DNA of 46,985 nucleotides from Solimonas sp. SE-A11 (GTDB taxonomy: Bacteria > Pseudomonadota > Gammaproteobacteria > Nevskiales > Nevskiaceae): contig NZ_JAUASX010000028.1 in the NCBI RefSeq assembly GCF_030345715.1, forward strand, positions 1 to 46,985. Direction: 5' to 3'. This document shows, piece after piece, positions 6,022 through 19,812 of this stretch (positions are counted from its first letter, which is position 1; every line of letters begins with the position of its first letter). Made by a program: the position numbers and the translations under genes. The notes beneath the pieces were generated by a model. The model did not search any database. It was not told the DNA's origin and saw only the letters and a list, made by a program, of their open reading frames with translations.

Positions 6022-6666
6022 TCACTCCGCATCCGGTTGATTCGCCGGATGTGCATTCTGGAAAGCCTTCAGAATATTGCAGGCCTGCTCGATGCGCCGC
6101 AGGTTCGGATAGGCGTCCAGCGCCATCCCGAAGCGCTCCGCATTGAATAACTGGGGCACCAGGCAACAATCCGCCAAAGTCGGTCGATCGCCGAAGCAAA
6201 ATGCACCGCGGCGCGGCGATGTGGTCAGCCTGCTCTCGAGCGCTTGTAGCCCGAGATCGATCCAATGGCGTATCCAGGTCTGCTTCTGCTCCTCCGACAA
6301 GCCTATCGGGCCGGTCAAGTACTTCAGGACGCGCAGATTGTTTAGCGGGTGAATATCGCAGGCGATGGCCAGCGCGATCTGCCGGACCCAGGCACGGTCG
6401 GCGGCGGAGGCCGGCAGCAACGGCGATTCCGGGTAACGCTCGTCGAGATATTCAATGATTGCCAATGACTGGGCGATACGTTCGCTACCGTCTTCCAGCA
6501 CCGGTACTAGCGCCGCGGGGTTTGTAGCGCGGAACTTCGCCAGGAACTGCTCGCCCCCATCTCGCGTCAGATGCACGGGCAGATGTTCGGCCTCCAGCCC
6601 CTTGAGGTTAAGCGCGATGCGGACGCGGTAGGAGGCGGAACTGCGGTAGTAGGTGTGAAGTTTCAT
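6022..6666 (-). CDS. nagL: Maleylpyruvate (maleylacetoacetate) isomerase, GST zeta-like
   Basis: A 214-residue glutathione-dependent isomerase of the zeta GST family. It has the N-terminal active-site SSASYRVRIALNLKG, the glutathione-binding NPAALVPVLEDG and ERIAQSLAIIEYLDE, and the C-terminal FCFGDRPTLADCCLVPQL. In the gentisate pathway the enzyme converts maleylpyruvate to fumarylpyruvate; in tyrosine catabolism homologues act on maleylacetoacetate. Context decides for maleylpyruvate, because gentisate dioxygenase and fumarylpyruvate hydrolase are in the same operon. The ATG overlaps the MFS stop by 4 bases (ATGA). It is the last gene of the lower operon. Confidence 0.9.
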   Translation of the reverse strand: MKLHTYYRSSASYRVRIALNLKGLEAEHLPVHLTRDGGEQFLAKFRATNPAALVPVLEDGSERIAQSLAIIEYLDERYPESPLLPASAADRAWVRQIALAIACDIHPLNNLRVLKYLTGPIGLSEEQKQTWIRHWIDLGLQALESRLTTSPRRGAFCFGDRPTLADCCLVPQLFNAERFGMALDAYPNLRRIEQACNILKAFQNAHPANQPDAE

Positions 6667-8006
6667 GGAAGCAGGTTCCGGGACGAGGGGGCGGGAGCCG
6701 GGGCGCTCAGCCGCGCCAGGCCGAAGATCGCCGCTGCCGTGACCAGCGCCGGGATCGCGCAGGCCAGCACCAGTTGGTCTGGGGACCACCCCCAGCCCAG
6801 CAGAAGTCCACCCAGCAGCGGACCGGCGACCGAGCCTATTCGACCGATGCCCAGCGCCCAACCGACACCGGTAGCACGGATCGCGGTCGGATAGGCCTCG
6901 GCAGCCAAGGCGTTGAGGCAGAATTGCGCGCCGACTACGCCCGCGCCGGCCAAGAAGATCGCTGGCAGTGTCAGCCGCGGTAGCGCCGTCACGTGGGCCA
7001 GCGCCGCCACGATGGCGGCAACCAGCACGAAGGCAGCTCCCAGCGTCCGGTAGGGGCCATAGCGTCGCACCAAGGCAGCCAACAGGATGCCCCCGCCGAT
7101 CCCGCCCAAGTTGAGCAACGACGAGGCCAGGATCGCCAAGCTTAGCGAGTAGCCGGTCAGCGTCAGCAGGGTCGGCAGCCAGTTGACCATGAAGTACATG
7201 ACCAGTAGGTTCATGAAGAACGCGGTCCACAGCAGCAAGGTGACCTTCGTGCGCCGACCGCGGAACAACTCCCGTAGAGGAAATCCCGGATGCGGCGGTT
7301 CGCCGGCGATAACGCTTCGCAAATCATGCCGTCTGTCCGGCTCCAGCCGTTCCAGCACGCGCTGGAGTTCACGGCTACGAGCGCGCCGCAAAAGCAGGAA
7401 CCCGGGCGACTCCGGCAAGCGCCAGGCCAGCACCAGCGTCAGCATCAGGGGGACAGCGCCACCGAGCACGAAAAGCGCCGGCCAGCCCAAGGTTGGAATC
7501 CACAGCGCGCTAAGAACGCCACCGAGGATAGAGCCCAGCGGGAAGCCGCAGAACATCAGCGTCACCAGCATGGTGCGCAGTCGCGCCGGAGCATACTCGG
7601 AGGTCAGCGCGATCAGGTTGGGCATCGCGCTGCCCAGGCCTAGCCCGGTCAGCAGGCGCAAGGCCAGCAATTGTCCGGGTGTCTGCGCCCAAGCAGTCGC
7701 CAGTGCGAATACGCCGAACAGCAGGGTCGAAACCACGATCGTCCACTTGCGCCCCCAACGGTCGGCCAGCGGCCCGCCGATAAGCGCGCCGGCCATCAGA
7801 CCCAGCAGCCCGGCACCGAACACCGGCCCCAGCGCCGACGGCGCCATGCCCCATTGCTCGGCAATCGCGGGAGCGACGTAAGCGATGACCTGGGTGTCGA
7901 AGCCGTCAAGCAAGGCCACCAGAGCGCACAGCGTGACAACCTCAAGCTGCAGGCGTCCCAGCGGGCGCGTGTCGATCAGCTCGGTGATCCGAAATACGCC
8001 GGTCAT
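6663..8006 (-). CDS. MFS aromatic acid:H+ symporter (AAHS family)
   Basis: A 447-residue protein with about 12 hydrophobic segments. It has AAHS-family signatures: LLDGFDTQVIAYVAP in TM1, the loop 2-3 motif GGPLADRWGRKWT, and GSAMPNLIALTSEYAPARLR. Relatives (PcaK, BenK, MhpT, GenK) import aromatic acids such as 4-hydroxybenzoate or gentisate. Its place among salicylate/gentisate genes suggests salicylate or gentisate uptake. The gene is 7 bases downstream of the hydroxylase small subunit and overlaps the isomerase by 4 bases. Confidence 0.9.
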   Translation of the reverse strand: MTGVFRITELIDTRPLGRLQLEVVTLCALVALLDGFDTQVIAYVAPAIAEQWGMAPSALGPVFGAGLLGLMAGALIGGPLADRWGRKWTIVVSTLLFGVFALATAWAQTPGQLLALRLLTGLGLGSAMPNLIALTSEYAPARLRTMLVTLMFCGFPLGSILGGVLSALWIPTLGWPALFVLGGAVPLMLTLVLAWRLPESPGFLLLRRARSRELQRVLERLEPDRRHDLRSVIAGEPPHPGFPLRELFRGRRTKVTLLLWTAFFMNLLVMYFMVNWLPTLLTLTGYSLSLAILASSLLNLGGIGGGILLAALVRRYGPYRTLGAAFVLVAAIVAALAHVTALPRLTLPAIFLAGAGVVGAQFCLNALAAEAYPTAIRATGVGWALGIGRIGSVAGPLLGGLLLGWGWSPDQLVLACAIPALVTAAAIFGLARLSAPAPAPSSRNLLP

Positions 8007-8013
8007 TAAGTTC

Positions 8014-8496
8014 CTAGATTGGGTAGATGATCGCGTTGGGGATCATTTCGCTGTCGTAAATGCAGAAGCGCGACGCGAACTTCAGCGCACCATCTACCCT
8101 CACCACTTCGTCCAGATAACGGCCGACATTGAACACCGTGCTGATTTCCCCAAGCTTGGTACGGAACACCGCGTAGTTCGCCTCCAGGAACCAGCGCCCG
8201 CGATCCACCGCCAGGACGCGCGGCAAGCTCACGACATGCCGTTGGTAGTAGGGGTCATGGAACAGGGTCTCGCGGATTCCGTAGACGCGATCCTGCAGCA
8301 TGCCCTTGCTATGGAAATGCAGCGTCGCCAGCGGCAGCCCACGCTCATGGTTTTCGCGCGGCTGGAGCTTGTAGACGCAATCCTCGGTGAAGAACTCCGG
8401 CCAGCCGTCCCAGTTGCCCGCATCGACGGTGGCCGTATACTCGGCGTAGAGCTGCAAAAGCTCGGTGTACACCAGCGGTTCGAGTGCCTGATTCAT
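8014..8496 (-). CDS. nagH: Salicylate 5-hydroxylase small (beta) oxygenase subunit
   Basis: A 160-residue NTF2/SnoaL-fold protein of the aromatic-ring-hydroxylating oxygenase beta-subunit family: an N-terminal helix (LLQLYAEYTATVDAGNWDGW), the FFTEDCVYKLQPREN strand, and C-terminal strands with SRFCIYDSEMIPN. Beta subunits are structural partners in alpha3-beta3 oxygenases. It overlaps the alpha-subunit stop by 4 bases, so the pair is translationally coupled. Assignment to salicylate 5-hydroxylase rests on the adjacent large subunit and the gentisate genes. Confidence 0.85.
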   Translation of the reverse strand: MNQALEPLVYTELLQLYAEYTATVDAGNWDGWPEFFTEDCVYKLQPRENHERGLPLATLHFHSKGMLQDRVYGIRETLFHDPYYQRHVVSLPRVLAVDRGRWFLEANYAVFRTKLGEISTVFNVGRYLDEVVRVDGALKFASRFCIYDSEMIPNAIIYPI

Positions 8497-9755
8497 ACGC
8501 CCATCACCCGCCGCCAGTATTGATACATGCCCCGAATCAGTGTCTCCGAGGCGATGTTGGTTGCCTCTTCGCTATCGTGCCCACCCATTTCCAGCAGGCA
8601 TTGCTGGTCTGGCTTTTCCTGGAACCCCATCTGCGAGAACTCGATGACCTCGCCGTCGTCCGCGGAAACATAGCCGGACGGGCCGAACAGGTTGGCTTGC
8701 AGCAAGCGCCGCTGGATCATCTCGTCGCTGTCGTCTTCGAAGGCGAAGTGAGTCCACACGAAATCAAACACGCCAGGCCCGCGCGGTTGGATATGCCGCA
8801 TCGAGAGACTATTGACCTGCTGCTGAATGATCAGGCTCGGAAACAGCGTCAACATCACCGCGGTCGGACCCTTCCACCATTCCTCTGGCACGATGTCGAG
8901 TTGGCGCGGGTCGCGCAGGCTCATGTCGGCTTTGTAGCTGGTCACGCCGGAGACGACGTCCCCGGCCGGCTTGCCGACGCTGCGCACGCCGATCATCGCG
9001 GCATGGCGCTTGTGCGGGTCCATCTTCAGTGAGGTCTTGCTGTCGGCGCGCCACAAGCCGAAGGTCACGAACCAGCTATGCAACAGGCCCGGATGATAGG
9101 GATCCTTGATGTTTTCCTGCATCAGCTTCCAGTTTCCCGGGATTCGTTGCCGGTTGTAGCCCAGTATCTTCAGCTTGCGGCCGTCGAAAACGCGGTCGAA
9201 GTAGGACAGGATCGTCGGACCGAGGTAGTCCTCAAAGGACTCCAGCGAGTGGTCGAAGCTGGCAAACACCACGCCGCCGCGCACCGCGACCTTGAGCGAG
9301 GTCAGGCCGCGGCCCTCCATCTGGAAATCAGCCGGCATGCCGCCATTGAGCTGACCGTCCTGGCGGATACCTCGGCGATAGGGAATGCCGCGCAACTTGC
9401 CCTCAAGATCGTAGGCCCACTGATGGTAGGGGCAGACGAATTCCTTGCGGTTACCCTGGCGCTCGCGGCAGAACTGCGCGCCGCGATGGGCGCAGACGTT
9501 CTCCAGCACCCGCACGCCGCCGTCCTGGGTGCGCACCATGATGACCGAACGCTCTCCGACAACCGAGCGGCGGAAGTCGCCCGGGTGCGGGATCTCGGCC
9601 TCCAGGCCGATATAGCACCAGTGACCGGCGTAGTAGAAGCGCTCGAGTTCGCGTCGATAGGTATCCGGATCCGTGTAGACCCAATAGGGCACGCGGTGCA
9701 CCCCGTCGCCCGGCCAACCCGGCGACGAAGGGAGAGTGATGGGGGCGTCGTTCAT
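8493..9755 (-). CDS. nagG: Salicylate 5-hydroxylase large (alpha) Rieske subunit
   Basis: A 420-residue Rieske non-heme iron oxygenase alpha subunit. The Rieske cluster ligands are C88/H90 (ENVCAHRG) and C108/H111 (FVCPYHQW). The mononuclear iron ligands are H221 and H226 with bridging D218 (NIKDPYHPGLLHSW). The pattern resembles NagG of the Ralstonia U2 nag operon, which hydroxylates salicylate at C5 to give gentisate. Gentisate 1,2-dioxygenase lies two genes upstream, which supports that product. Other salicylate- or anthranilate-type hydroxylases cannot be excluded by sequence alone. The ATG at 9755 follows an AGGAGA site. Confidence 0.85.
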   Translation of the reverse strand: MNDAPITLPSSPGWPGDGVHRVPYWVYTDPDTYRRELERFYYAGHWCYIGLEAEIPHPGDFRRSVVGERSVIMVRTQDGGVRVLENVCAHRGAQFCRERQGNRKEFVCPYHQWAYDLEGKLRGIPYRRGIRQDGQLNGGMPADFQMEGRGLTSLKVAVRGGVVFASFDHSLESFEDYLGPTILSYFDRVFDGRKLKILGYNRQRIPGNWKLMQENIKDPYHPGLLHSWFVTFGLWRADSKTSLKMDPHKRHAAMIGVRSVGKPAGDVVSGVTSYKADMSLRDPRQLDIVPEEWWKGPTAVMLTLFPSLIIQQQVNSLSMRHIQPRGPGVFDFVWTHFAFEDDSDEMIQRRLLQANLFGPSGYVSADDGEVIEFSQMGFQEKPDQQCLLEMGGHDSEEATNIASETLIRGMYQYWRRVMGV

Positions 9756-9773: not shown

Positions 9774-10469
9774 TCAGCCCGCCACGCGTACCTGGATTTC
9801 GCCTAGACCATCGATCCGTCCCAGCATCAGGTCGCCGGCGACCACCGCGCCGACGCCTTCCGGCGTGCCGGTCATGATCAGATCGCCCGGTTGCAGGGTC
9901 TCGAACTGCGACAAGAAGGCGATGCACTCCGGCACGCTCCAGATGAGCTTGGCGATATCCGAAGCCTGGCGCGGCTGGCCATTGACAGCGACCGATATGG
10001 AAGCGGATTTCGGATGGCCCACGTCGGCGACCCGACGGATCGCGCCGATCGGCGCAGACTGCGAAAAAGATTTGCCGAACTCCCAGGGGCGCCCCTTGTC
10101 GCGAGCCTCCAGCTGCAGGTCACGGCGCGTCATGTCCAGGCCCACGGCGTAGCCGTAGACCAGCGACTCGGCCTCGTCCTGCGACACCGCCCTGCCCTGC
10201 CGGCCGATCGCCACCACCAGCTCGATCTCATGATGGAAGTTGCCGGTCATCGGCGGATACGGAATCTCCGCGGTCTGACCGTTGACGACCACGATCGCGG
10301 AGGCGGGTTTCATGAAGAAGAACGGCGGCTCGCGCTCGTCCTGGCCCATTTCACGGGCATGGGCCGCGTAGTTGCGGCCGACGCAGAAAATGCGATTGAC
10401 CGGAAACTGTTCGTCGCTGCCGGCCACCGGCAGCACATAGCCCGGCGCGGGCGAAAATGTGTACTTCAC
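9774..10469 (-). CDS. nagK: Fumarylpyruvate hydrolase (FAH family)
   Basis: A 231-residue fumarylacetoacetate-hydrolase-fold enzyme with the core elements FCVGRNYAAHAREMG, PPFFFMKPASAIV, the metal-binding HHEIELVVAIG and GYAVGLDMTRRD, GKSFSQSAPIG, and the C-terminal GDLIMTGTPEGVG. In the gentisate pathway it cleaves fumarylpyruvate to fumarate and pyruvate. I place the start at GTG 10469, six bases after a GAGGAG site; a TTG one codon upstream is the alternative. It lies between gentisate dioxygenase (46-base gap) and the hydroxylase large subunit. Confidence 0.88.
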   Translation of the reverse strand: MKYTFSPAPGYVLPVAGSDEQFPVNRIFCVGRNYAAHAREMGQDEREPPFFFMKPASAIVVVNGQTAEIPYPPMTGNFHHEIELVVAIGRQGRAVSQDEAESLVYGYAVGLDMTRRDLQLEARDKGRPWEFGKSFSQSAPIGAIRRVADVGHPKSASISVAVNGQPRQASDIAKLIWSVPECIAFLSQFETLQPGDLIMTGTPEGVGAVVAGDLMLGRIDGLGEIQVRVAG

Positions 10470-10518
10470 CAAACTCTCCTCGAGTACTGTGATTCGGGTT
10501 GTGAACCTGGATGTGTAA

Positions 10519-11568
10519 TCAGGCCTTTTGCTCGCGCCATAGACCCAGTAGTCGCTGGACCGGGCGGTCGGAATAGCTGAACAGGATGGTTTCGCAAGTC
10601 ACTTGGAGGCGCAGTTCATTCCAGGAGGGCACGACGAACACGTCGTTCTCGCCAAAGCGCAGTTCGGTCTCGCCGATGCGCGCCACACCGCCGCCCTGCA
10701 GGCAGATAAAGATGCTGCTGTCGGTACTGCGGCAACCGCGGGTCTCGAAGCCGGCGGGTAGCAATTGAGCCGCCGCGCCGATCGTCGGCATCGGGGAACC
10801 TCCAGTGGCCGGGTTGACGTAGCGAAGCTTGTAGCCGTGATGCGGATCGATGTCGCCTGATGCGATCCCACGCAGCGCCTCTCGCGTCCGGGCGTAGGGA
10901 TAGACGAAGACCTTGGTCGGATCCTGGCGCTGCGGCTCGAAATCCACCGGCAGCATGTTGTACCCGTAGCGCGCGAGTGCATCGCCCTCGCGCCGTATCA
11001 CCGCTTGCTCGTCTTGCGCGCTCTTTTCAGCGAAGCCGGCGTCGAGCAGTTGCACGATCGGGATGTCGAGGCCATCGAGCCAGATCACCGGCTGCGTGCC
11101 GGAGTTTCCGTGATCGTGGAACGTCCAGGCCGGGGTGATGATGAAATCACCGCGGCGCATCGTCGTGCGCTCGCCGTCGACTGCGGTGTAGGCGCCCTCG
11201 CCTTCCAGTACCAGGCGCAGCGCCGACTGCGTATGACGATGTGCCGGCGCGACTTCACCCGGCAGGATCAGCTGCAGGCCGGCATAGAGACTCTGAGTGA
11301 TGCGCGACTGCCCCCGCAATCCGGGATTCTCCAGCACCAGCACCCGGCGCTCGGCCTCGTGCGCGCTGATCAACCCGCCGGCTTCAAGCAGGTAGTCGCG
11401 GGCCTGGTTGTAGCGCCACAGTGCCGCCTGTGCCGGGCTTCTCGGCGTCGGCGGCACCAACGTCCCTAGCACTTCCCAGAGCGGCGTGAGGTGGTGGCGG
11501 TCGATGCGTTCGTAGTACTCGCGGCGGGCATCGAGGCCAGCGGGGTCGATCATGGCAGCGGAGGTCAT
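10519..11568 (-). CDS. nagI: Gentisate 1,2-dioxygenase
   Basis: A 349-residue bicupin. The N-terminal cupin carries iron ligands H110 and H112 (VAPAHRHTQSALRLVLEG) and H151 (TPAWTFHDHGN). The second cupin (IFICLQGGGVARIGE ... ENDVFVVPSWNELRL) is degenerate, as in this family. The enzyme opens gentisate between C1 and C2 with O2 to give maleylpyruvate. The ATG at 11568 lies 10 bases after the reductase stop; an alternative ATG at 11553 is less favoured. Length and motifs are normal. It connects the salicylate 5-hydroxylase with the isomerase and hydrolase of the same operon. Confidence 0.93.
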   Translation of the reverse strand: MTSAAMIDPAGLDARREYYERIDRHHLTPLWEVLGTLVPPTPRSPAQAALWRYNQARDYLLEAGGLISAHEAERRVLVLENPGLRGQSRITQSLYAGLQLILPGEVAPAHRHTQSALRLVLEGEGAYTAVDGERTTMRRGDFIITPAWTFHDHGNSGTQPVIWLDGLDIPIVQLLDAGFAEKSAQDEQAVIRREGDALARYGYNMLPVDFEPQRQDPTKVFVYPYARTREALRGIASGDIDPHHGYKLRYVNPATGGSPMPTIGAAAQLLPAGFETRGCRSTDSSIFICLQGGGVARIGETELRFGENDVFVVPSWNELRLQVTCETILFSYSDRPVQRLLGLWREQKA

Positions 11569-11578
11569 GGGAGCCTGG

Positions 11579-12562
11579 CTAGTTTCCGGTGATGTGAAAG
11601 GGTTCGGCGTAGATGCTCTGTTCCGCCATCTGCTTCTCCCGCAGCGTACGCACCGTGGCGTCCACCGCGTGCGGCGATCCAAAAACGTAGCCGCGCCAGC
11701 CCGCAAGGCTGGGGAAATCAGCTGCGATCGCGCTTGTCAGCAGGCCACGCCTCATGCCACGGTCGAGGGCTCCGGTGGCGACCACGGTGTGTGTGCACGC
11801 CGCCGGCAACTGCTCCAGAACCTGCGCCAGTTCGTCCTGGCCATAGACGTCTTCCCGACAGGTGAACCCCAAGTAGATCTGCAGCGGATTCTTCATTCCT
11901 GCGGCGGCAATGCCGCGCAGGATCGACAGCGTCGGTGCCAGGCCTGTGCCGGCACCCACACAGAGGATGGGATCTTCATTGCGAGATCGCAGGAAGGTGA
12001 TTCCCAGAGGCCCACGCAGCTTGAGCACGTCGCCGGGCTTGAGCTCTCCGGAAAGGCGGGCGGAAGCACGGCCCCCTGGATGGAGACGCGCGTGGAACTC
12101 CAGTTCGTTTCCCGGCAATCCACACATCGAGTACGGACGGGCAAGGCCGCGCTCGAATTCCAGCTCGACGTACTGCCCTGGGGAAAATGACAGCGGCAAC
12201 TGTGGCCGCACCCTCAGCCGCAGGGTGTCGCGGGACAGAGGCGCCACCGCCACCACCTCGGCCTTCATCGTGCGCGCCGGGTGAACTACCACCTCTTCCG
12301 GCGCAGGAATCTCGATCACACAGTCTTCGGTCAGCACGCTCTGGCAGGCCAGCACGCAGGACCACCCCGGAACCGGCGACGGACGCATCTGCCGCGCCGT
12401 CCCCACGACTTTGCCGCGCAGGAGCCGGCAGCGACAGACGCCGCAGCGTCCGTCCTTGCAGCTGTGCGAGATAGGAACCTGGTTGCCCAATAGCGCGTCC
12501 AGCAGGGTCTCCCCCGCCTGTACTTCCAGGACACGCCCGCTGGGTCGCACCACCAGTTCCAC
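11579..12562 (-). CDS. Ferredoxin-type oxygenase reductase (NagAa-like), lower operon
   Basis: A 327-residue reductase. The N-terminal plant-type [2Fe-2S] domain has C35, C40, C43 and C73 (SHSCKDGRCGVCRC ... LACQS), followed by the FAD-binding RPYSMCG and the NAD-binding GAGTGLAP. It passes electrons from NAD(P)H to a Rieske ferredoxin or oxygenase. It is the first gene of the operon containing salicylate 5-hydroxylase, so that is its likely partner. The start is a GTG at 12562 preceded by GAGGAGAG; the longer open frame upstream would cross the divergent promoter. The second reductase at 17863 is a different sequence. Confidence 0.88.
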   Translation of the reverse strand: MELVVRPSGRVLEVQAGETLLDALLGNQVPISHSCKDGRCGVCRCRLLRGKVVGTARQMRPSPVPGWSCVLACQSVLTEDCVIEIPAPEEVVVHPARTMKAEVVAVAPLSRDTLRLRVRPQLPLSFSPGQYVELEFERGLARPYSMCGLPGNELEFHARLHPGGRASARLSGELKPGDVLKLRGPLGITFLRSRNEDPILCVGAGTGLAPTLSILRGIAAAGMKNPLQIYLGFTCREDVYGQDELAQVLEQLPAACTHTVVATGALDRGMRRGLLTSAIAADFPSLAGWRGYVFGSPHAVDATVRTLREKQMAEQSIYAEPFHITGN

Positions 12563-12716
12563 CCTCGCTCTCCTCTGATCCACTTCGATTGCAGAATCGG
12601 AGATGCCCCACCATAAGTAAATCGTATAGGGTGAATGATGCCGTTCACTCTCGTGAATGTTGCGCCCGGAGGATCGCGGGCTAGTCTGCGCACTCCGACA
12701 TCGACAGGGATCAACG
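12563..12716. promoter_or_regulatory. Divergent promoter region with palindromic LysR-type box
   Basis: The 154-base gap separates the lower operon (minus) from the CoA-transferase/lyase pair (plus). It contains TTCA-CTCTCG-TGAA (12644-12657), an exact inverted repeat TTCAC-N4-GTGAA, and a further GTGAA half-site at 12631-12635. NahR sites are recalled as TTCA-N6-TGAT-like, and the adjacent LysR protein is NahR-like, so this is a candidate salicylate-responsive site. Promoter -10/-35 boxes were not assigned. Confidence 0.55.
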
Positions 12717-13925
12717 ATGAGCAGCGACGCACGTACCGACCCGCCGCCTCTGACAGGACTCAAGGTTCTCGAATTAGGACAGCTGATAGGCGGTCCCTTC
12801 GCCGGCAAGGTCCTCGGCGACTTCGGCGCCGAAGTAATCAAGATCGAGCCGCCGGGACAGGGCGACCCGCTACGCAACTGGCGCCTGCTTCGCAACGGCA
12901 CCTCGGTCTGGTGGCAGATACAGTCGCGCAACAAACGTTCGGTGACGCTGGACCTGCGCCAGCCCGAGGCGCAGGACATCGCGCGACGGCTCGCGGCAGA
13001 GGCCGACGTGTTGATCGAGAATTTCCGCCCCGGCGTGCTGGAGGACTGGGGGCTGGGATGGAAGGAGCTGTCGGCGCTAAACCCGGGCCTTGTGATGCTG
13101 CGCATCTCCGGTTATGGCCAGACCGGTCCTTACCGCGACCGTCCCGGCTTTGGCGTCATCGGCGAAGCCATGGGCGGCCTGCGCCACCTCAGCGGCGAGC
13201 CGGGACGCCTGCCGGTTCGGGTTGGCGTCAGCATCGGCGATACCCTGGCCGCTCTGCACGGTGCGATCGGCATACTGCTGGCGCTGTATCACCGCAAGGT
13301 CAACGGTGGGGCCGGCCAGGTGATCGACGTGGCGCTGTACGAGGCCGTGTTCAACTGCATGGAGAGCCTGCTATCGGAGTACAGCGCCGCCGGCGTCATA
13401 CGTGAACCAGCGGGCAGCGCGCTGCCGGGTATCGCACCCAGCAACGCCTACCCCTGTAGCGACGGCCACGTCCTGATCGCCGGCAACGGCGACAGCATCT
13501 TCAGGCGGCTGATGGAGACGATCGGCCGCCACGACCTGGCACAGGACACGGCACTAGCCGACAACGAAGGCCGTGTTGCCCGCGCCGCGCAGCTCGATGA
13601 AGCGATCGGCGCCTGGACCCGGCTACGCCGCGTCGAGGAGGTACTGGGGGCACTGCAGGCCGAACGCGTGCCCTGCGGCCGGGTCTACTCCGCCCGAGAC
13701 ATCGCCGAGGACCCGCAATACCGTGCACGCGGCATGATACAGACCGTGACCACGCGGGAGGGCGACATGCTGGAAGTTCCGGGCATCATCCCCCAGCTGT
13801 CGCTAAGTCCTGGCGGAATTCGCCACCCCGCGCCGCGGCTAGGTGAGGACACCGAGGCCGTGCTGGCCAGCCTTGGGATCGAGGGCGAGCGCCTTTCTGC
13901 CTTGCGCGGGGCGCGCATCGTATGA
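12717..13925 (+). CDS. Class III (CaiB/BaiF) CoA-transferase
   Basis: A 402-residue family III CoA-transferase. It has the N-terminal LTGLKVLELGQLIGGPFAGK, LGDFGAEVIKIEPPGQGDPL, the NKRSVTLDLRQPE strand, and DVLIENFRPGVLEDWGLGW, all conserved in the family, and ends with PRLGEDTEAVLASLG. Such enzymes move CoA between carboxylic acids (formyl/oxalate, carnitine, succinyl/citramalate). Overlap by ATGA with an HMG-CoA-lyase-like gene suggests the pair activates a hydroxy-diacid and then cleaves its CoA ester. A succinyl-CoA:citramalate-type transferase is my best guess; the acid substrate is inferred. The ATG at 12717 has an AGGGAT-type site; an upstream frame from 12657 exists. Confidence 0.88.
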   Translation: MSSDARTDPPPLTGLKVLELGQLIGGPFAGKVLGDFGAEVIKIEPPGQGDPLRNWRLLRNGTSVWWQIQSRNKRSVTLDLRQPEAQDIARRLAAEADVLIENFRPGVLEDWGLGWKELSALNPGLVMLRISGYGQTGPYRDRPGFGVIGEAMGGLRHLSGEPGRLPVRVGVSIGDTLAALHGAIGILLALYHRKVNGGAGQVIDVALYEAVFNCMESLLSEYSAAGVIREPAGSALPGIAPSNAYPCSDGHVLIAGNGDSIFRRLMETIGRHDLAQDTALADNEGRVARAAQLDEAIGAWTRLRRVEEVLGALQAERVPCGRVYSARDIAEDPQYRARGMIQTVTTREGDMLEVPGIIPQLSLSPGGIRHPAPRLGEDTEAVLASLGIEGERLSALRGARIV

Positions 13926-14863
13926 CCCATGCAATGAATCCGCGTCCCCGCATCCACCTCACCGAGGTCGCCCCGCGCGACGGCCTGCAGGCCGAAGCCT
14001 GCTTTGTGCCCAGTGCCGACAAGATCGCGCTGATCGACATGCTGTCGCGCAGCGGCCTGGCCAAGATCGAAGTCACGTCCTTCGTATCGCCCCAGGCCAT
14101 CCCGGCGCTGGCCGATGCGGACGCCGTGCTCGGCACGATCCATCGCGCGCCGGAGATCATCTACACGGTCCTGGTGCCGAACCTGCGGGGCGCCGAACGC
14201 GCACTGCCATTGCGGCCGGACGAATTCAACCTGGTGATGTCGGTCAGTGAGAGTCACAACCGTGCCAACCTGCGCCGCAGCTGCGAAGAGTCCTTCAGCG
14301 CCTTGCGCGAGGTCGTCGCCCTGGCACGCACGGCCGGCATCGCCATCAACGTCTCGCTATCCACCGCCTTCGGCTGTCCTTACGAAGGTGAGGTCGCTCA
14401 GGCACGTGTGCTCGACTGGGCATGGCAGTTCTTCGATCTCGGCGTGGACAGCATTGCGCTCTGCGATACCACCGGAATGGCCTACCCCGCCCAGGTTTCC
14501 ACGATCAGCGCCGCCTGGGCGCGACGATGGCCGCTGGAGACGCTGACACTGCACTTCCACAACACCCGCGGCATGGGCCTGGCCAACGTGCTGGCCGGCG
14601 CAGCTGCAGGCGTCAGGCGCTTCGACGCTTCGCTGGGCGGATTGGGCGGCTGCCCGTATGCGCCGGGTGCCACAGGAAATGTCTGCACCGAGGACGTCGC
14701 GCACATGCTGGAGTTGCAGGGCTACGACTGCGGCATCGACATCGACATCCTGCTCGCCGCTTCCGAGAGGCTGCAGAAGCTGGTCGGCCACGAAGTCCCC
14801 GGTCAAATCCTCAAGGCCGGGCGGCGCCTGGAACGGCGCCCCGCGGCCATCGTCAAACGGTAA
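13922..14863 (+). CDS. HMG-CoA lyase-like (DRE-TIM) acyl-CoA lyase
   Basis: A 313-residue TIM-barrel lyase with the catalytic EVAPRDGLQAE loop, KIEVTSFVSPQAIPALADAD, the metal-binding HFHNTRGMGLAN and the family signature GLGGCPYAPGATGN. HMG-CoA lyases yield acetyl-CoA plus a keto acid; relatives cleave citramalyl-CoA to acetyl-CoA and pyruvate. The second role fits the coupled CoA-transferase better than leucine catabolism, because no other leucine-pathway genes are present. It overlaps the transferase by 4 bases, and its last 11 bases overlap the convergent LysR gene. Confidence 0.85.
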   Translation: MTHAMNPRPRIHLTEVAPRDGLQAEACFVPSADKIALIDMLSRSGLAKIEVTSFVSPQAIPALADADAVLGTIHRAPEIIYTVLVPNLRGAERALPLRPDEFNLVMSVSESHNRANLRRSCEESFSALREVVALARTAGIAINVSLSTAFGCPYEGEVAQARVLDWAWQFFDLGVDSIALCDTTGMAYPAQVSTISAAWARRWPLETLTLHFHNTRGMGLANVLAGAAAGVRRFDASLGGLGGCPYAPGATGNVCTEDVAHMLELQGYDCGIDIDILLAASERLQKLVGHEVPGQILKAGRRLERRPAAIVKR

Positions 14864-15758
14864 ACAGTTCGAACAGCAATCGCCGCAGCCACTGGTTGGC
14901 CGGGTCGCGATGCAGCTTGGCATGCCAAAACAAGTCGATGGAGTGATCCGGCAGTTTGACCGGATGCGGCACGCATGTGAGCTTGAAGGGACCTTCGAGG
15001 CGTTTCGCGAGCCGCTCCGGCAGGGTCGCGATCAGGTCGGTTTCCTGCAGGATATGGCCCATCGCCACGAAATGCGGCACTGACAACTGTATCCTGCGCT
15101 CGGCGCCCTTGCGGTCAATCAGCTTGTCCACTTCTCCGTGACCGGTGCCATGGAGCACCACCACGGCGTGTTTCGCCGAGTAGAAATCTTCCTTGCTGAC
15201 GATCTTGCGCTTGGCCAGCGGATGCTGGTTGCGGAACACGCAGACGAAGCGCTGACGAAACAGGCGCTGGCGGAAGAAGCTGCCCTGCAGCTGCGGCAGC
15301 AGGCCGATCGCAAAATCCGCGCGGCCGCTCTCCATGTCGTCCTTCAGGTTTGCCGGGTTGTGGCGGATCGTCGACAGGGTGACGCCCGGCGCCATCTCCG
15401 CGAGCCGGTTCAGCAGCGGCGGAAGGAAATAGATCTCGCCGATGTCGGTCGCCGCAATGGTGAAGCTGCGCGTGCTGGTCGCCGGTTCGAACACACTCTC
15501 CTGGCTCAGCGCGCTCTTGATCGTATCGATCGCGTAGGCGATCGGTTCGGCCAGCTGCAGCGCACGAGGCGTGGGTTCCATGCCGTGAGAGGTACGAAGG
15601 AACAGGTCATCGTTGAGCAGCTTGCGCAGGCGGTTAAGCGCGTTGCTCACCGCTGGCTGCGAGACCCCCAGGCTTTCGGCGACGCGCGACACGCGCCGCT
15701 CGATTACCAGCTGGTTGAACACAAGCAATAAGTTTAGGTCGACTTTATTCAGATCCAT
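14853..15758 (-). CDS. NahR/NagR-like LysR-family regulator
   Basis: A 301-residue LysR protein resembling NahR along its whole length: DLNLLLVFNQLVIERRVSRV, QPAVSNALNRLRKLLNDDLF, HGMEPTPRAL in the HTH region, then FTIAATDIGEIYFLPPLLNR, HGTGHGEVD, and the C-terminal DHSIDLFWHAKLHRD. NahR and NagR activate naphthalene/salicylate operons on binding salicylate, which fits the pathway here. The ATG at 15758 follows GGAGG. It is divergent from the ferredoxin/ALDH/reductase operon and converges with the lyase gene. I infer that it controls both modules through the TTCA-N6-TGA sites. Confidence 0.9.
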   Translation of the reverse strand: MDLNKVDLNLLLVFNQLVIERRVSRVAESLGVSQPAVSNALNRLRKLLNDDLFLRTSHGMEPTPRALQLAEPIAYAIDTIKSALSQESVFEPATSTRSFTIAATDIGEIYFLPPLLNRLAEMAPGVTLSTIRHNPANLKDDMESGRADFAIGLLPQLQGSFFRQRLFRQRFVCVFRNQHPLAKRKIVSKEDFYSAKHAVVVLHGTGHGEVDKLIDRKGAERRIQLSVPHFVAMGHILQETDLIATLPERLAKRLEGPFKLTCVPHPVKLPDHSIDLFWHAKLHRDPANQWLRRLLFELFTV

Positions 15759-15910
15759 GGCGCCTCCATTTGAACCTGACGCGCGCTGGCCCGACATTCA
15801 GCGGAGTGATGAGGTTCATTACTCTCATTCTATTGAATGATGCTCTGCCGTTCACGATCCTTTGGCAACAGCTGACAGACCAACGGTCGAGAATCGGAGA
15901 GCGCACTTCA
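15759..15910. promoter_or_regulatory. LysR/ferredoxin divergent promoter with NahR-like box
   Basis: This 152-base gap between the regulator and the Rieske ferredoxin gene contains CTCA-TTCTAT-TGAA at 15824-15837 (minus strand TTCA-N6-TGAG). It also holds the inverted repeat CATTC-N4-GAATG (15826-15839) and extra TTCA half-sites at 15797 and 15815. The arrangement resembles the element at 12644-12657. Autorepression plus activation of the divergent operon is the usual LysR arrangement (inference). Confidence 0.55.
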
Positions 15911-16265: not shown

Positions 16266-17792
16266 ATGACCAAGAGCGAATTCCCGGACCGCAACGGCGA
16301 TGCCGCCCAGGCAGCGAAATACTTCCAGAAGGAGTATGGCCACTTCATAGGCGGCACATGGGTCCAGGGCGCCAGCGGCGAGCGCATCCCGATGATCAAT
16401 CCCGCCAACGGTCAGACTCTGTCGTATATCCAGTCCGGCAACGCCGAGGACGCGCGCCGAGCTGTCGATGCCGCAGCGCAAGCCTTTCCGGCCTGGTCGC
16501 AGACGCCGCGCTCCGAGCGCCAGCGCGTCCTCTACGAGATGGCGCGCCGCCTGCGTGCGCGAATGGCCGACTACGCGATGATGGATTGCCTGGACAATGG
16601 CAAACCCGCTATGGAAGCGATGCATTTCGACCTGCCGATGGCCATCGAGCAGTTCGAGATATTCTCCGGAGCTCCTTGGTTCCTTCATGGCCAGTCGATC
16701 GACGCGCCGAATACCCTGGGTATCGTGCTGCGTGAACCGCTGGGGGTGGTGGCGCAGATCATTCCCTGGAACGTTCCGCTGATCATGATGGCCGCGAAGC
16801 TGGCGCCGGCTCTGGCCGCGGGCAACACCGTGGTGCTGAAGCCCTCCGAGATCGTCTGCCTGTCGGTGCTGGAGTTCTTCCGCGAGATGGCAGATCTTCT
16901 GCCGCCAGGCGTGGTCAACGTCGTCACCGGATATGGCCCCAGCGTCGGTGAGGCACTGGTGACGCACCCGAAGGTGCGCAAGGTCGCCTTCACCGGCTCC
17001 CGTCCGACGGCACAAAAGCTGATGCAGTACGCCAGCGTCAACATCATTCCGCAGACCATGGAGTTGGGTGGCAAGTCCGCCAATATCGTCTGCGAGGATG
17101 CCGACCTGGATGCCGCCGCCGAGGGCGCGGCGATGTCGACCGTGCTCAACAAGGGCGAGGTTTGCCTGGCTGGCAGCCGCGTCTTCGTGCACGAAAAGGT
17201 CAAGGATGTCTTCCTCGACAAGTTCACCTCCCTGCTCAAGCGCGTGAAGGCAGGAGACCCGCGCGAGCCGACGACGCAGATCGGGCCGCAGGTCTCCAGG
17301 ACGCAATACGACAAGATCATGGGCTACCTCGAACTCGGCCAGCAGGAGGGCGCCAAGCTCGCCGCCGGTGGCCGCAAGGCCACCCCGGCCGGGTTCGAGG
17401 ATGGCCTGTTCATCGAACCGACGGTGTTCTTCGACGTCGACAACAGCATGCGCATCGCCCAGGAAGAAATCTTCGGCCCGGTCAGCTGCGTCATCGGCTT
17501 TCGCGACGACGAAGAGGTGGTGCGCATGGCCAACGACTCGGTCTACGGTCTCGGTGGCGGACTGTGGACCAGGGACCTCTCCCGCGCCCATCGCATCGCG
17601 CGGGGCCTGGAAACCGGCACGGTCTGGGTCAACCGTTACTACAACTTCCTTGGCGGCATGCCGGTCGGCGGCTACAAGCAGAGCGGTTTCGGCCGCGAGT
17701 TTGCCGCCGAGGTGATGAATCACTACACCCTGACCAAGAGCGTGATCGTCAACCTTGCTGAAGGTCCGATCGGCGTCTTCGGGCAGCAGTAG
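16266..17792 (+). CDS. Aldehyde dehydrogenase, probable salicylaldehyde dehydrogenase
   Basis: A 508-residue NAD(P)-dependent aldehyde dehydrogenase with the nucleotide-binding IIPWNVPL (165-172), catalytic E266 in TMELGGKSANIV and catalytic C300 in NKGEVCLAGSRV. Given the hydratase-aldolase elsewhere in the window, which would release salicylaldehyde, the most likely reaction is salicylaldehyde to salicylate (NahF role). Its position between ferredoxin and reductase genes of the same route supports this. Sequence alone does not exclude another aromatic aldehyde, since broad-specificity ALDHs look alike. A GAGGAG ribosome binding site precedes the ATG. Confidence 0.85.
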   Translation: MTKSEFPDRNGDAAQAAKYFQKEYGHFIGGTWVQGASGERIPMINPANGQTLSYIQSGNAEDARRAVDAAAQAFPAWSQTPRSERQRVLYEMARRLRARMADYAMMDCLDNGKPAMEAMHFDLPMAIEQFEIFSGAPWFLHGQSIDAPNTLGIVLREPLGVVAQIIPWNVPLIMMAAKLAPALAAGNTVVLKPSEIVCLSVLEFFREMADLLPPGVVNVVTGYGPSVGEALVTHPKVRKVAFTGSRPTAQKLMQYASVNIIPQTMELGGKSANIVCEDADLDAAAEGAAMSTVLNKGEVCLAGSRVFVHEKVKDVFLDKFTSLLKRVKAGDPREPTTQIGPQVSRTQYDKIMGYLELGQQEGAKLAAGGRKATPAGFEDGLFIEPTVFFDVDNSMRIAQEEIFGPVSCVIGFRDDEEVVRMANDSVYGLGGGLWTRDLSRAHRIARGLETGTVWVNRYYNFLGGMPVGGYKQSGFGREFAAEVMNHYTLTKSVIVNLAEGPIGVFGQQ

Positions 17793-17862
17793 GCCTCCCT
17801 TCTCCGTCCTTGGCGGCTGCGCGGGCAGTGTCGACGCCGGCCGCCTTTTCTATTCCATACAC

Positions 17863-18885
17863 ATGGCCAGGCACCTGATTACCCTCGAAGCCAGCGGTCA
17901 GAGCTTTCCTTGCGATGCCGGAGATACGGTGCTGCGTGCCGCGCTGCGTGCCGGAATCGCCTTCCCCTACGAGTGCAATTCCGGTGGCTGCGGCTCCTGC
18001 CAGTTCGAAAGGGTTTCCGGAGACCTCGAAGAATTGTGGCCTCAGGCCCCGGGCCTCACGCCACGGGCCCGCGAGCGCGGGCGGCAGTTGGCCTGCCAAA
18101 CGGTCCCCAGCGGTGACTGCACACTGCGCGTCCGGCTCAAGCCGGACTGCCAGCCGTCGCTGCGACCCACGCGGCGGCGTGCGACCCTGGTGTCGAGAAC
18201 GCGGCTGACCGCCGACATGGCCGAGTTCAGCTTCCGCGCAGGGGACCCGGCGGATTTCCTGCCCGGCCAGTACGCCTTGCTGGACCTGCCGGGCGTCGCT
18301 GGCGCCCGCGCCTACTCCATGTCGAATCTGCCGAACGGCGAGGGCCTCTGGCAGTTCGTGATCAAACAAATAGGCGCCGGTCGCGGCGGCGCGGCTCTGT
18401 TCGAGGGCCTGCAGCCCGGCGATACGATCGGCCTGGACGGCCCCTACGGCATGGCACACCTGCGCCCGGACAATGACCGCGACATCGTCTGCGTCGGCGG
18501 CGGCTCGGGCATTTCGCCACTGCTGTCGATCTTGGCCGCTGCGGCACGGGCACCGCAGCTGGCGTCCCGGCGGCTGCTGCTGTTCTACGGCGGCCGTACG
18601 CCGGCAGACCTCTGCGCGCCGGCCCTGCTGGCGCGCGATGAGGCGCTGGCCAGAAGAGTCGAGTGCGTCACCGCGATCTCCGACCCAGCGCATGCCGGGG
18701 CCTGGGAAGGCCAGCGCGGCTTCGTGCACCAGGTGCTGCAGGGGTGGCTGGAGTCGGCAGGCGATGCCAGCAGATACGACTACTACTTCTGTGGCCCGCC
18801 GCCGATGACGGACGCACTGCAGCGACTACTGATGCTGGAAAAGCGCGTGCCAACCGCACAGCTGCATTTCGACCGTTTCGTCTAA
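17863..18885 (+). CDS. nahAa: Ferredoxin-NAD(P)+ reductase for ring-hydroxylating dioxygenase
   Basis: A 340-residue reductase. The N-terminal plant-type ferredoxin domain has C38, C43, C46 and C78 (YECNSGGCGSCQFE ... LACQT), followed by the FAD-binding RAYSMSNLP, the NAD-binding VGGGSGISPLLSI and the C-terminal YYFCGPPPMTDALQ. It should reduce the Rieske ferredoxin encoded at the start of this operon. The ATG at 17863 begins at the homologous MARHLITLEA; the upstream open frame overlaps the ALDH gene. The gap after the ALDH is 70 bases. It ends just before a strong shared terminator. Confidence 0.88.
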   Translation: MARHLITLEASGQSFPCDAGDTVLRAALRAGIAFPYECNSGGCGSCQFERVSGDLEELWPQAPGLTPRARERGRQLACQTVPSGDCTLRVRLKPDCQPSLRPTRRRATLVSRTRLTADMAEFSFRAGDPADFLPGQYALLDLPGVAGARAYSMSNLPNGEGLWQFVIKQIGAGRGGAALFEGLQPGDTIGLDGPYGMAHLRPDNDRDIVCVGGGSGISPLLSILAAAARAPQLASRRLLLFYGGRTPADLCAPALLARDEALARRVECVTAISDPAHAGAWEGQRGFVHQVLQGWLESAGDASRYDYYFCGPPPMTDALQRLLMLEKRVPTAQLHFDRFV

Positions 18886-18945: not shown

Positions 18946-19812
18946 TCAGACGTAGCGGTCCGCCACCTGGATGCTGAAACGGCCAATCTGCGCGATCTCC
19001 GCGTCCACCCGGTCACCGGGCAGCAACGGCCCCACCCCCTCCGGCGTGCCCGTGAAGATCAGATCGCCCGGATGGAGCGTGTAGAAGCTGGAGGCGTATT
19101 CGATCAGGCGCGGCACATCGTAAATCAGCTGCCGGGTATTGGCCGACTGCCGCAATTCGTTGTTGACCCAGAGGCGCAGATCCAATACGCCGGGATCCGG
19201 AATCTCGTCGCGCGTCGCCAGCCAGGGCCCGCAGACCGCATAGGTGTCCGGCGACTTGCGAAAGCTCTGCAACTCGGGGCCGCGGATCGTGATGTCCAGG
19301 CCGATGGCGTAGCCGGCGACGTAGTTCAAGGCCTCCTCGCGGGACACTTGGTGGCAGCGCCGACCGATGACCACCGCCAGTTCCACTTCGTGGTCATTTC
19401 GGCGATCGGGAAAGCGCAGGCGAATCTGTTCGGAGGGACCGATCAGCGCGCTGCTGGCCTTCAGGAACAGGCCCCAGTCCCAGATGCTCCGGGTCATGTC
19501 GCGCCCATGCGCAATGGCTGCGTCCTGGCTGGTCTCGTCGATGTGTGCCCGGTAGTTGATCGGCGCATTGACGATCTTGCCGGGATTGGCCACCGGTGAA
19601 TCCAGCGCCAGGCGATCCAGCGCCAGGCGCGGTGCCGCGGGCAGCAGCTCCCGCACCCGCTCCAGTACGGTGTCGAAATGCAGGATCAGGGGATCGCCCT
19701 GTGCCAACGGCCAATGCTGCAGGGGGATCGCGGCCAGCGCCGGCGTCACGTCCAGAACGCCGTCTCCTACCAGAACTCCGAGGCGGTTGCCGTTGAATCG
19801 ACAGATTTTCAT
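18946..19812 (-). CDS. FAH-family hydrolase/isomerase, second copy
   Basis: A 288-residue fumarylacetoacetate-hydrolase-family protein with its own N-terminal domain (MKICRFNGNRLGVLVGDGV). The core has IVNAPINYRAHIDE, WGLFLKASSALIGP, the metal-binding HEVELAVVIGRRCHQ and GYAIGLDITIRG, and the C-terminal GDLIFTGTPEGVGPLLPGD. It is longer than and different from the fumarylpyruvate hydrolase of the lower operon. Relatives act as fumarylpyruvate hydrolases, 2-hydroxyhepta-2,4-diene-1,7-dioate isomerases or oxaloacetate decarboxylases. As the last gene of the upper operon it may process a ring-cleavage product; the substrate is unknown. Confidence 0.8.
   Translation of the reverse strand: MKICRFNGNRLGVLVGDGVLDVTPALAAIPLQHWPLAQGDPLILHFDTVLERVRELLPAAPRLALDRLALDSPVANPGKIVNAPINYRAHIDETSQDAAIAHGRDMTRSIWDWGLFLKASSALIGPSEQIRLRFPDRRNDHEVELAVVIGRRCHQVSREEALNYVAGYAIGLDITIRGPELQSFRKSPDTYAVCGPWLATRDEIPDPGVLDLRLWVNNELRQSANTRQLIYDVPRLIEYASSFYTLHPGDLIFTGTPEGVGPLLPGDRVDAEIAQIGRFSIQVADRYV

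Follow-up and report, generated by a model that had tools for sequence, protein, structure and literature searches.

A candidate two-step (R)-citramalate module beside a gentisate operon in Solimonas sp. SE-A11

Introduction

What does a coenzyme A (CoA) transferase followed by a lyase resembling 3-hydroxy-3-methylglutaryl-CoA (HMG-CoA) lyase do beside a gentisate operon? The question is raised by a stretch of 46,985 nucleotides from Solimonas sp. SE-A11 (contig NZ_JAUASX010000028.1, assembly GCF_030345715.1), referred to here as the window, in which the two genes occupy positions 12717 to 14863. The initial annotation had proposed that the pair is of the citramalate type and clears the C5 diacids left when methylgentisates are cleaved during the breakdown of polycyclic aromatic hydrocarbons (PAHs), an interpretation that is partly supported by the analysis reported here. 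The pair is read as a two-step (R)-citramalate module forming a side branch of the gentisate pathway, a reading that the sequence comparisons described below make moderately probable.

Sequence and predicted structure of the gene pair

The transferase frame begins with an ATG at 12717 and ends at 13925 on the forward strand, encoding 402 amino acids, and the lyase frame begins with an ATG at 13922 and ends at 14863 on the same strand, encoding 313. The frames overlap in the sequence ATGA, and the coupled pair of class III CoA-transferase and HMG-CoA-lyase-like enzyme described initially was recovered at exactly these positions. The transferase matched PF02515 with 423 bits and contains the catalytic aspartate of the class III fold (D175). 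It scored far under every named NCBIfam equivalog, the highest being succinate-glutarate CoA-transferase with 275 of 750 bits. It is read as a succinyl-CoA:(R)-citramalate CoA-transferase, which would act on (R)-citramalate with CoA from a donor such as succinyl-CoA.

The lyase matched PF00682 and the HMG-CoA-lyase model PRK05692 of NCBIfam (340.9 bits, cut-off 246). By correspondence with the catalytic residues of the human enzyme, R19, D20, E50, H211, H213, C244 and N253 were all found, giving the metal and acid-base residues of the HMGL fold. The AlphaFold model had a pLDDT of 90.5 and its structural matches were HMG-CoA lyases; the top match was 6nds, with 48% identity, whose title names coenzyme A and 3-methylmalate. 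The enzyme is predicted to be an (R)-citramalyl-CoA lyase, both the substrate and its stereochemistry being deduced from family, fold and context.

The score above the PRK05692 cut-off, the fold and catalytic residues of HMG-CoA lyases and the succinate-glutarate CoA-transferase as best NCBIfam match are also what an ordinary HMG-CoA lyase would give, accompanied by a transferase that activates HMG or glutarate-like acids. The same genome, however, encodes another HMG-CoA lyase (G000:C2), 42% identical to that of the window, in an operon with a biotin carboxylase containing a methylcrotonyl-CoA carboxylase domain, a carboxyl transferase and acyl-CoA dehydrogenases. Identification of the window lyase as the HMG-CoA lyase of leucine breakdown was rejected because the leucine gene sits in this operon of its own elsewhere. 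The window lyase also clusters away from the leucine-type lyase in a quick tree, and the cluster contains no source of HMG, so that an HMG function is regarded as very improbable.

Stereochemistry and the proposed route

In the accessible part of PMC6689899, CitE-type lyases are described as acting on (S)-citramalyl-CoA and (R)-HMG-CoA, and the TIM-barrel HMG-CoA lyases as acting on (S)-HMG-CoA. From this fold stereochemistry an HMGL-fold lyase should take (R)-citramalyl-CoA. Citraconate fits the hydrolysis of methylmaleylpyruvate without isomerisation. The (R)-isomer of citramalate fits the hydration of citraconate by a LeuCD-type enzyme. In the proposed route, methyl-substituted salicylates would be converted to methylgentisates and these cleaved to methylmaleylpyruvate, which would be hydrolysed to pyruvate and citraconate without cis-trans isomerisation. 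Citraconate would then be hydrated to (R)-citramalate by a LeuCD-type hydratase, the CoA-transferase would convert this to (R)-citramalyl-CoA at the expense of succinyl-CoA or another donor, and the product would be cleaved by the HMGL-fold lyase to acetyl-CoA and pyruvate. According to the available text of PMC9875883, Pseudomonas putida supplied with the (S)-type cluster PA0878-PA0883 of P. aeruginosa uses neither (R)-citramalate nor citraconate, and the (R)-isomer therefore needs other enzymes.

The initial annotation had named mesaconate beside citraconate as the C5 diacid. Mesaconate would arise in an isomerising branch, from methylfumarylpyruvate, and would be hydrated by class I fumarase to (S)-citramalate, a conversion reported in the portion of PMC4682846 that is accessible; the pair would then be (S)-specific. 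The operon does hold isomerase and fumarylpyruvate-hydrolase-like genes, and one class I fumarase is present in the genome. The available sections of PMC6689899, however, assign cleavage of (S)-citramalyl-CoA to CitE-type and not to HMGL-fold lyases. Among the named-genome loci, which are the best 80 of 593 confirmed lyase matches, LeuC and LeuD occur together in four (L082, L104, L125 and L139), compared with none for class I fumarase when the copy from the window genome was used as query. Citraconate is thus the part of the earlier proposal that is favoured, and mesaconate is less likely because the HMGL fold should take the (R)-isomer and class I fumarase gives (S)-citramalate; the (S)-specific branch as a whole appears highly unlikely.

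Conservation of the pair

A lyase match at E<=1e-60 was found in 63 of 146 related genomes. Seven of the 146, including that of the window, carry the pair at 96–100% identity, and these represent five genera. The next-best lyase in the same family was 46% identical, with none reported between 46% and 96% at the same E value. The six other islands show the pair in unchanged gene order, flanked on one side by the gentisate operon and on the other by a series of genes encoding LysR, aldehyde dehydrogenase, an FAA-family hydrolase (FAA2), a glutathione S-transferase (GST), a short-chain dehydrogenase/reductase (SDR) and a dioxygenase.

Over 21 comparisons of the seven islands, the transferase had a mean ratio of nonsynonymous to synonymous substitution rates (dN/dS) of 0.102 and the lyase one of 0.137. 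The gentisate dioxygenase gave 0.094 (20 comparisons) and LysR 0.348, the latter from only five comparisons of four equal-length rows. The pair is under purifying selection and, with ratios of 0.10 and 0.14 over seven islands, its presence is more than chance.

Neighbourhoods of related pairs

The transferase lies directly upstream of the lyase in all of the first eight plasmid loci, with a LysR gene nearby in seven (not in L013), and on Cupriavidus necator pBB2 LeuC-LeuD follow directly behind the pair. A same-strand transferase adjoins the lyase in 69 of the best 80 of 593 loci; some of the other 11 end at a contig edge. Gentisate dioxygenase was found in two of these 80 (L104 and L139), both of which also carry LeuC and LeuD. 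In L104 (Pusillimonas caeni) the order is hydrolase, transferase, lyase, LeuC, LeuD, gentisate dioxygenase, a hydrolase like that of the gentisate operon of the window (FAA1) and GST. In L139 (Xenophilus azovorans) it is hydrolase, gentisate dioxygenase, ATP-binding cassette (ABC) transporter genes, transferase, lyase, LeuC, LeuD and a chemotaxis protein, and this locus also encodes a LysR regulator and a hydroxylase alpha subunit 59% and 70% identical to those of the window.

Outside the islands of the window's own type, the pair was found directly beside LeuC-LeuD at eight loci (L012, L082, L104, L125, L139, L224, L226 and L227) and within 10 kb of a gentisate dioxygenase at six (L071, L072, L073, L104, L139 and L225), the loci with both linkages being those of Pusillimonas and Xenophilus. 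On the PAH plasmids of Sagittula, Actibacterium and Neorhizobium petrolearium, gentisate dioxygenase, both hydrolases and an isomerase accompany the pair. Taken with its retention in seven of seven islands and with the separate leucine-type lyase of the genome, these linkages bear out the proposal that a citramalate-type pair belongs to the gentisate/PAH cluster.

Two further explanations were considered. In the first, the pair uses imported citramalate or a similar branched hydroxy-diacid and is a mere passenger in the PAH island. Six of the first eight plasmid loci opened have a gene for a tripartite-tricarboxylate or dicarboxylate transporter close to the pair, and tripartite-tricarboxylate binding-protein genes are common among the best 80 of 593 loci. 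No such transporter was seen, however, among the window genes scanned, the pair shares the promoter region of the gentisate operon and is kept in the island in all seven genomes, and the gentisate linkage arose more than once. Import as the main role is considered unlikely.

In the second, the pair serves (R)-malate, with plain maleylpyruvate giving maleate, (R)-malate, its CoA ester and finally acetyl-CoA and glyoxylate. This could account for the linkage in Antarctobacter, in which the pair lies with 3-hydroxybenzoate 6-monooxygenase and gentisate dioxygenase and the plain substrate gives maleate. On Antarctobacter pSMS3-3 an HbzF-like hydrolase is followed by transferase, lyase, 3-hydroxybenzoate 6-monooxygenase and gentisate dioxygenase, with the genes from hydrolase to monooxygenase touching or overlapping. 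On the other hand, plain gentisate is also provided for in the window by a GST isomerase and a fumarylpyruvate-hydrolase-like gene, and three of the opened clusters, those of Shinella, Advenella and Cupriavidus, contain hydrolase and gentisate dioxygenase but no pair next to them, the last having one 29 kb away. The lyase family, moreover, acts on tertiary 3-hydroxy-3-methyl acyl-CoAs. A role in malate breakdown is given a low probability.

The Antarctobacter lyase, used as a query, matched seven plasmid records at E<=1e-70, and the transferase adjoins the lyase in all seven. Genes resembling gentisate dioxygenase and FAA2 occur on five of them (Sagittula, Actibacterium, Neorhizobium, Antarctobacter and Sphingobium AntQ-1), and LeuC-LeuD lie behind the pair on three (AntQ-1, TKS and MI1205). 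No gentisate gene was seen in the stretches opened of Sphingobium TKS and MI1205, where the pair and LeuCD (L226 and L227) are placed inside clusters of cytochrome P450, SDR and thiolase genes. The Sagittula-type clusters also contain a cytochrome P450 gene (L071:12714-13952, L072:10667-11911 and L073:10663-11907), which lies close to the pair and the HbzF-like hydrolase or separates them. The Xenophilus locus starts with the 3' part of such a gene (L139:1-366; 53% identity to the Sagittula P450), ahead of a ferredoxin reductase.

Recruitment and the Chloroflexota reference pairs

Approximately unbiased (AU) tests on 37 rows rejected a single clade of all gentisate-linked transferases (those of the window islands, L104, L139 and L071-L073; p 6e-35) and a transferase clade of the window islands with L104 and L139 (p 6.6e-42). 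For the lyases the same two groupings gave p values of 0.012 and 0.013. All four values are weakened because the groups were named after the first trees had been seen. The simplest reading is that the pair was recruited to gentisate clusters independently at least three times.

The Chloroflexus aurantiacus transferase/lyase pair, said to have been characterised by Friedmann et al. in 2006, provides a point of comparison. A lyase match was found in 100 of 201 Chloroflexota genomes searched. The seven stretches opened comprised three with a transferase-lyase pair (L201, L203 and L207) and four with a lyase and no transferase; L201 is presumably C. aurantiacus J-10-fl and L207 presumably Roseiflexus sp. 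RS-1. In L201, L203 and L207 respectively, the transferase is 47, 47 and 50% identical to that of the window and the lyase 39, 39 and 43%. Both systems have a class III transferase followed by an HMGL-fold lyase, and the transferases share a G-(I/V)-S-(I/L)-G-D motif at the catalytic aspartate that is lacking from the transferases of pair types L068 and L194. The context differs, being gentisate/PAH breakdown in the window and autotrophic CO2 fixation in C. aurantiacus. In a tree of pair transferases only, rooted at the midpoint and carrying a long-branch warning, the Chloroflexota transferases are sister to the larger group that contains the window. It is the gene architecture and the transferase, more than the lyase, that carry the analogy with Chloroflexus. 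The C. aurantiacus enzymes, a succinyl-CoA:(R)-citramalate CoA-transferase and an (R)-citramalyl-CoA lyase, are entered as EC 2.8.3.20 (K18313) and EC 4.1.3.46 (K18314), respectively, in the available text of PMC8307300.

A residue signature of 33 columns was defined from rows of our own choosing as separating ten pair-type from six leucine-type lyases. At these columns the Chloroflexota pair lyases matched the pair type at 19 and the leucine type at 5 positions (L201), or 17 and 8 (L207). As separate observations, the stand-alone HMGL-fold lyases L200 and L206 are 45–47% identical to the window lyase, closer than the Chloroflexota pair lyases, and in L201 (3339-7341) the pair is followed immediately by hydantoinase A/B-type genes and has a GntR-type gene upstream.

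Hydrolase and hydratase steps

The hydrolase of the proposed route is perhaps FAA2 (18946..19812, minus strand; PF01557), whose assignment as a maleylpyruvate hydrolase is uncertain and whose top Protein Data Bank (PDB) match is the maleylpyruvate hydrolase 6jvv (E 6.6e-69). In a sample of the class, FAA2-like genes were found in two of 369 genomes (the window's own and G176), both of which belong to the six of 369 with a lyase at E<=1e-85. In G176 the end of one contig carries a transferase fragment with the other type of motif next to gentisate dioxygenase and hydrolase genes; the lyase of this genome is on a different contig. Among 399 Burkholderiales genomes, 12 had an FAA2-like gene (E<=1e-75), 73 a lyase (E<=1e-80) and eight both, a co-occurrence with a one-sided Fisher p of 2.4e-4 that is uncorrected for genome size and kinship and includes a centre genome (G453) picked for having both.

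FAA2-like hydrolases were found in 27 plasmid records (E<=1e-60), eight of which were opened, the Antarctobacter plasmid having been picked from the lyase list. The pair lies within 12 kb of the hydrolase in five of the eight, if AntQ-1 is included, where the distance of about 11.5 kb spans the start of the record; it is 29 kb away in Cupriavidus and was not found in the stretches opened of the Shinella and Advenella plasmids. On plasmid 24p of Advenella, a LeuC frame that the listed annotation lacks (L077:3460-4797) was observed with a cupin gene on one side and LeuD on the other.

The hydratase is perhaps the housekeeping LeuCD. The window genome has one LeuC, 68% identical to the LeuC of the Pusillimonas cluster, and such a LeuC is present in six of the seven island genomes.

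Evidence weighing against the citramalate reading

A number of results weigh against the (R)-citramalate reading or parts of it. At the 33 signature columns the Sagittula-type lyases are mixed, with 12–16 pair-type and 8–10 leucine-type residues, and the stand-alone Chloroflexota lyases L200 and L206 are pair-type at 20 and 20. The signature was rejected as proof of citramalyl-CoA specificity because these stand-alone lyases carry it. The quick lyase tree placed L201, L203 and L207 with the leucine-type lyases (support 85–88, long branches flagged), and the window lyase did not group with the presumed Chloroflexus pair lyase. Most close relatives of the pair have transporters alongside and not gentisate genes, gentisate dioxygenase occurring in only the two of the best 80 of 593 loci given above.

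In the FAA2 tree clade, nine of 12 rows had no gentisate dioxygenase in the fetched stretch; the context of one such clade-mate was scanned and held a branched-chain-type ABC transporter, with no aromatic genes among the proteins tested. Identification of FAA2 as a plain HbzF is weakened by this tree position. The pair lies alongside only one of 15 Burkholderiales FAA2-like loci (L104), and with this count and the five of eight opened plasmids a rule that HbzF-like hydrolases travel with the pair was rejected.

For the hydratase, no citraconate hydratase gene linked to the pair was found among the window genes scanned, in agreement with the initial annotation, and a search of the window genome gave no second LeuC. 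In one island genome (G033) no LeuC was found at E<=1e-20. A 13-row LeuC tree grouped the six LeuCs of the island genomes in one clade and four of the seven cluster LeuCs in another, with starred support values of 99 and 98. With no hydratase gene in the window, and one LeuC and one class I fumarase in the genome, the initial suggestion of a complete methyl-PAH lower pathway could not be confirmed.

Relation to known systems

The kinds of enzyme and the chemistry are already known. In Pseudomonas, alkylgentisates are reportedly broken down via citraconate and citramalate, as described by Hopper, Chapman and Dagley in 1971, and the chemistry proposed for the window is the same. HbzF and HbzIJ of P. 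alcaligenes belong to alkylgentisate breakdown; we know of no genes for the citramalate steps from this Pseudomonas work. The itaconate/(S)-citramalate cluster PA0878-PA0883 of P. aeruginosa resembles the window in using a CoA-transferase followed by cleavage to acetyl-CoA and pyruvate, but its lyase is an (S)-citramalyl-CoA lyase of a different fold. The nag-type naphthalene/gentisate pathway shares with the window genes for hydroxylase, gentisate dioxygenase, isomerase and fumarylpyruvate hydrolase, to which the window adds the transferase/lyase pair and the second FAA hydrolase. The naphthalene-degradation review PMC8006333 mentions both direct hydrolysis and isomerisation of maleylpyruvate, and its available text contains no citra- word.

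The PAH cluster of Sagittula sp. MA-2 is similar to that of the window, containing gentisate dioxygenase, NagK, NagL and HbzF with transferase and HMG-CoA-lyase-like genes. In Table 1 of PMC11705938 the HMG-CoA lyase and acyl-CoA transferase are placed between NagL and HbzF and, within the accessible part of that paper, both are left unassigned and marked as unrelated to known aromatic-degrading enzymes. This pair is 46%/42% identical to that of the window and of separate origin. A gene assignment for gentisate-linked citramalate steps was not found among the openly licensed papers searched, which exclude older subscription papers. What seems to be new is the assignment of these genes to an (R)-citramalate module that gentisate/PAH clusters would have acquired repeatedly and independently.

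A broader model can be put forward tentatively, at a probability somewhat below even: the gentisate pathways of PAH degraders may have a forked lower half, with a NagL/NagK isomerising arm for plain gentisate and a cis arm leading from methylmaleylpyruvate through citraconate and (R)-citramalate to acetyl-CoA and pyruvate. The pair would have been recruited at least three times independently, and in the clade of the window housekeeping LeuCD would double as citraconate hydratase. Methylated aromatics are common in oil and tar, and if the proposal is true the bacterium could finish digesting methyl-substituted aromatic pollutants. Two recurrent genes of PAH clusters would also gain a testable job, and might serve as a genome marker for the use of methyl-substituted PAHs.

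The surrounding island and its promoter

The gentisate-dioxygenase operon lies on the minus strand and diverges from the pair across 151 bp, confirming the divergent arrangement described initially. It contains a ferredoxin reductase component (11579..12565; PF00111, PF00970, PF00175), gentisate 1,2-dioxygenase (10519..11568; TIGR02272, 508.4 bits, cut-off 442.1), the fumarylpyruvate-hydrolase-like FAA1 (9774..10472; PF01557, second-best PDB match the putative fumarylpyruvate hydrolase 4maq), a Rieske hydroxylase alpha subunit, probably of salicylate 5-hydroxylase to judge by context (8493..9755; PF00355, PF00848), and a hydroxylase beta subunit (8014..8496; PF00866, PF13577). These are followed by a major facilitator superfamily aromatic-acid transporter (6663..8006; TIGR00895, 382.7 of 418.6 bits) and a GST-family protein (about 6022..6660; GST_N, GST_C), which is probably a maleylpyruvate isomerase and is 47–49% identical to the NagL/maleylacetoacetate-isomerase genes of L071-L073.

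A LysR-type regulator gene on the minus strand (14853..15797; PF00126, PF03466) overlaps the 3' end of the lyase gene by 11 bp and is a candidate regulator of both operons. The divergent promoter region (12566..12716) contains a palindrome, TTCACTCTCGTGAA, of the form TTCAC-N4-GTGAA at 12644-12657, which is the single match in the window at <=1 mismatch; its arms are identical in all seven islands and its centre varies. The LysR protein may control both operons through this palindrome. Of the shared LysR-box promoter proposed initially, one conserved palindrome was recovered, as an operator candidate only. At the Xenophilus locus L139 the palindrome was not found at <=1 mismatch, a further point on the opposing side, and the idea of an operator common to the window and Xenophilus was dropped.

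The downstream genes encode aldehyde dehydrogenase, FAA2, a second GST, SDR and ring-hydroxylating dioxygenase subunits, together with a DsbA-like protein, a LigB-type dioxygenase and a DHDPS-like aldolase, and probably represent an upper naphthalene-type pathway. Between the aldehyde dehydrogenase and FAA2 genes there is a plus-strand frame at 17755-18885, and the matching place in related islands resembles the gentisate-operon ferredoxin reductase (30–33% by tblastn). The island is flanked at 205-2137 of the window by IS21-type transposase and IstB genes, and in the related genome G004 the region past the GST gene (L053:18951-19998) likewise has matches to IstB (88%) and the transposase (79%).

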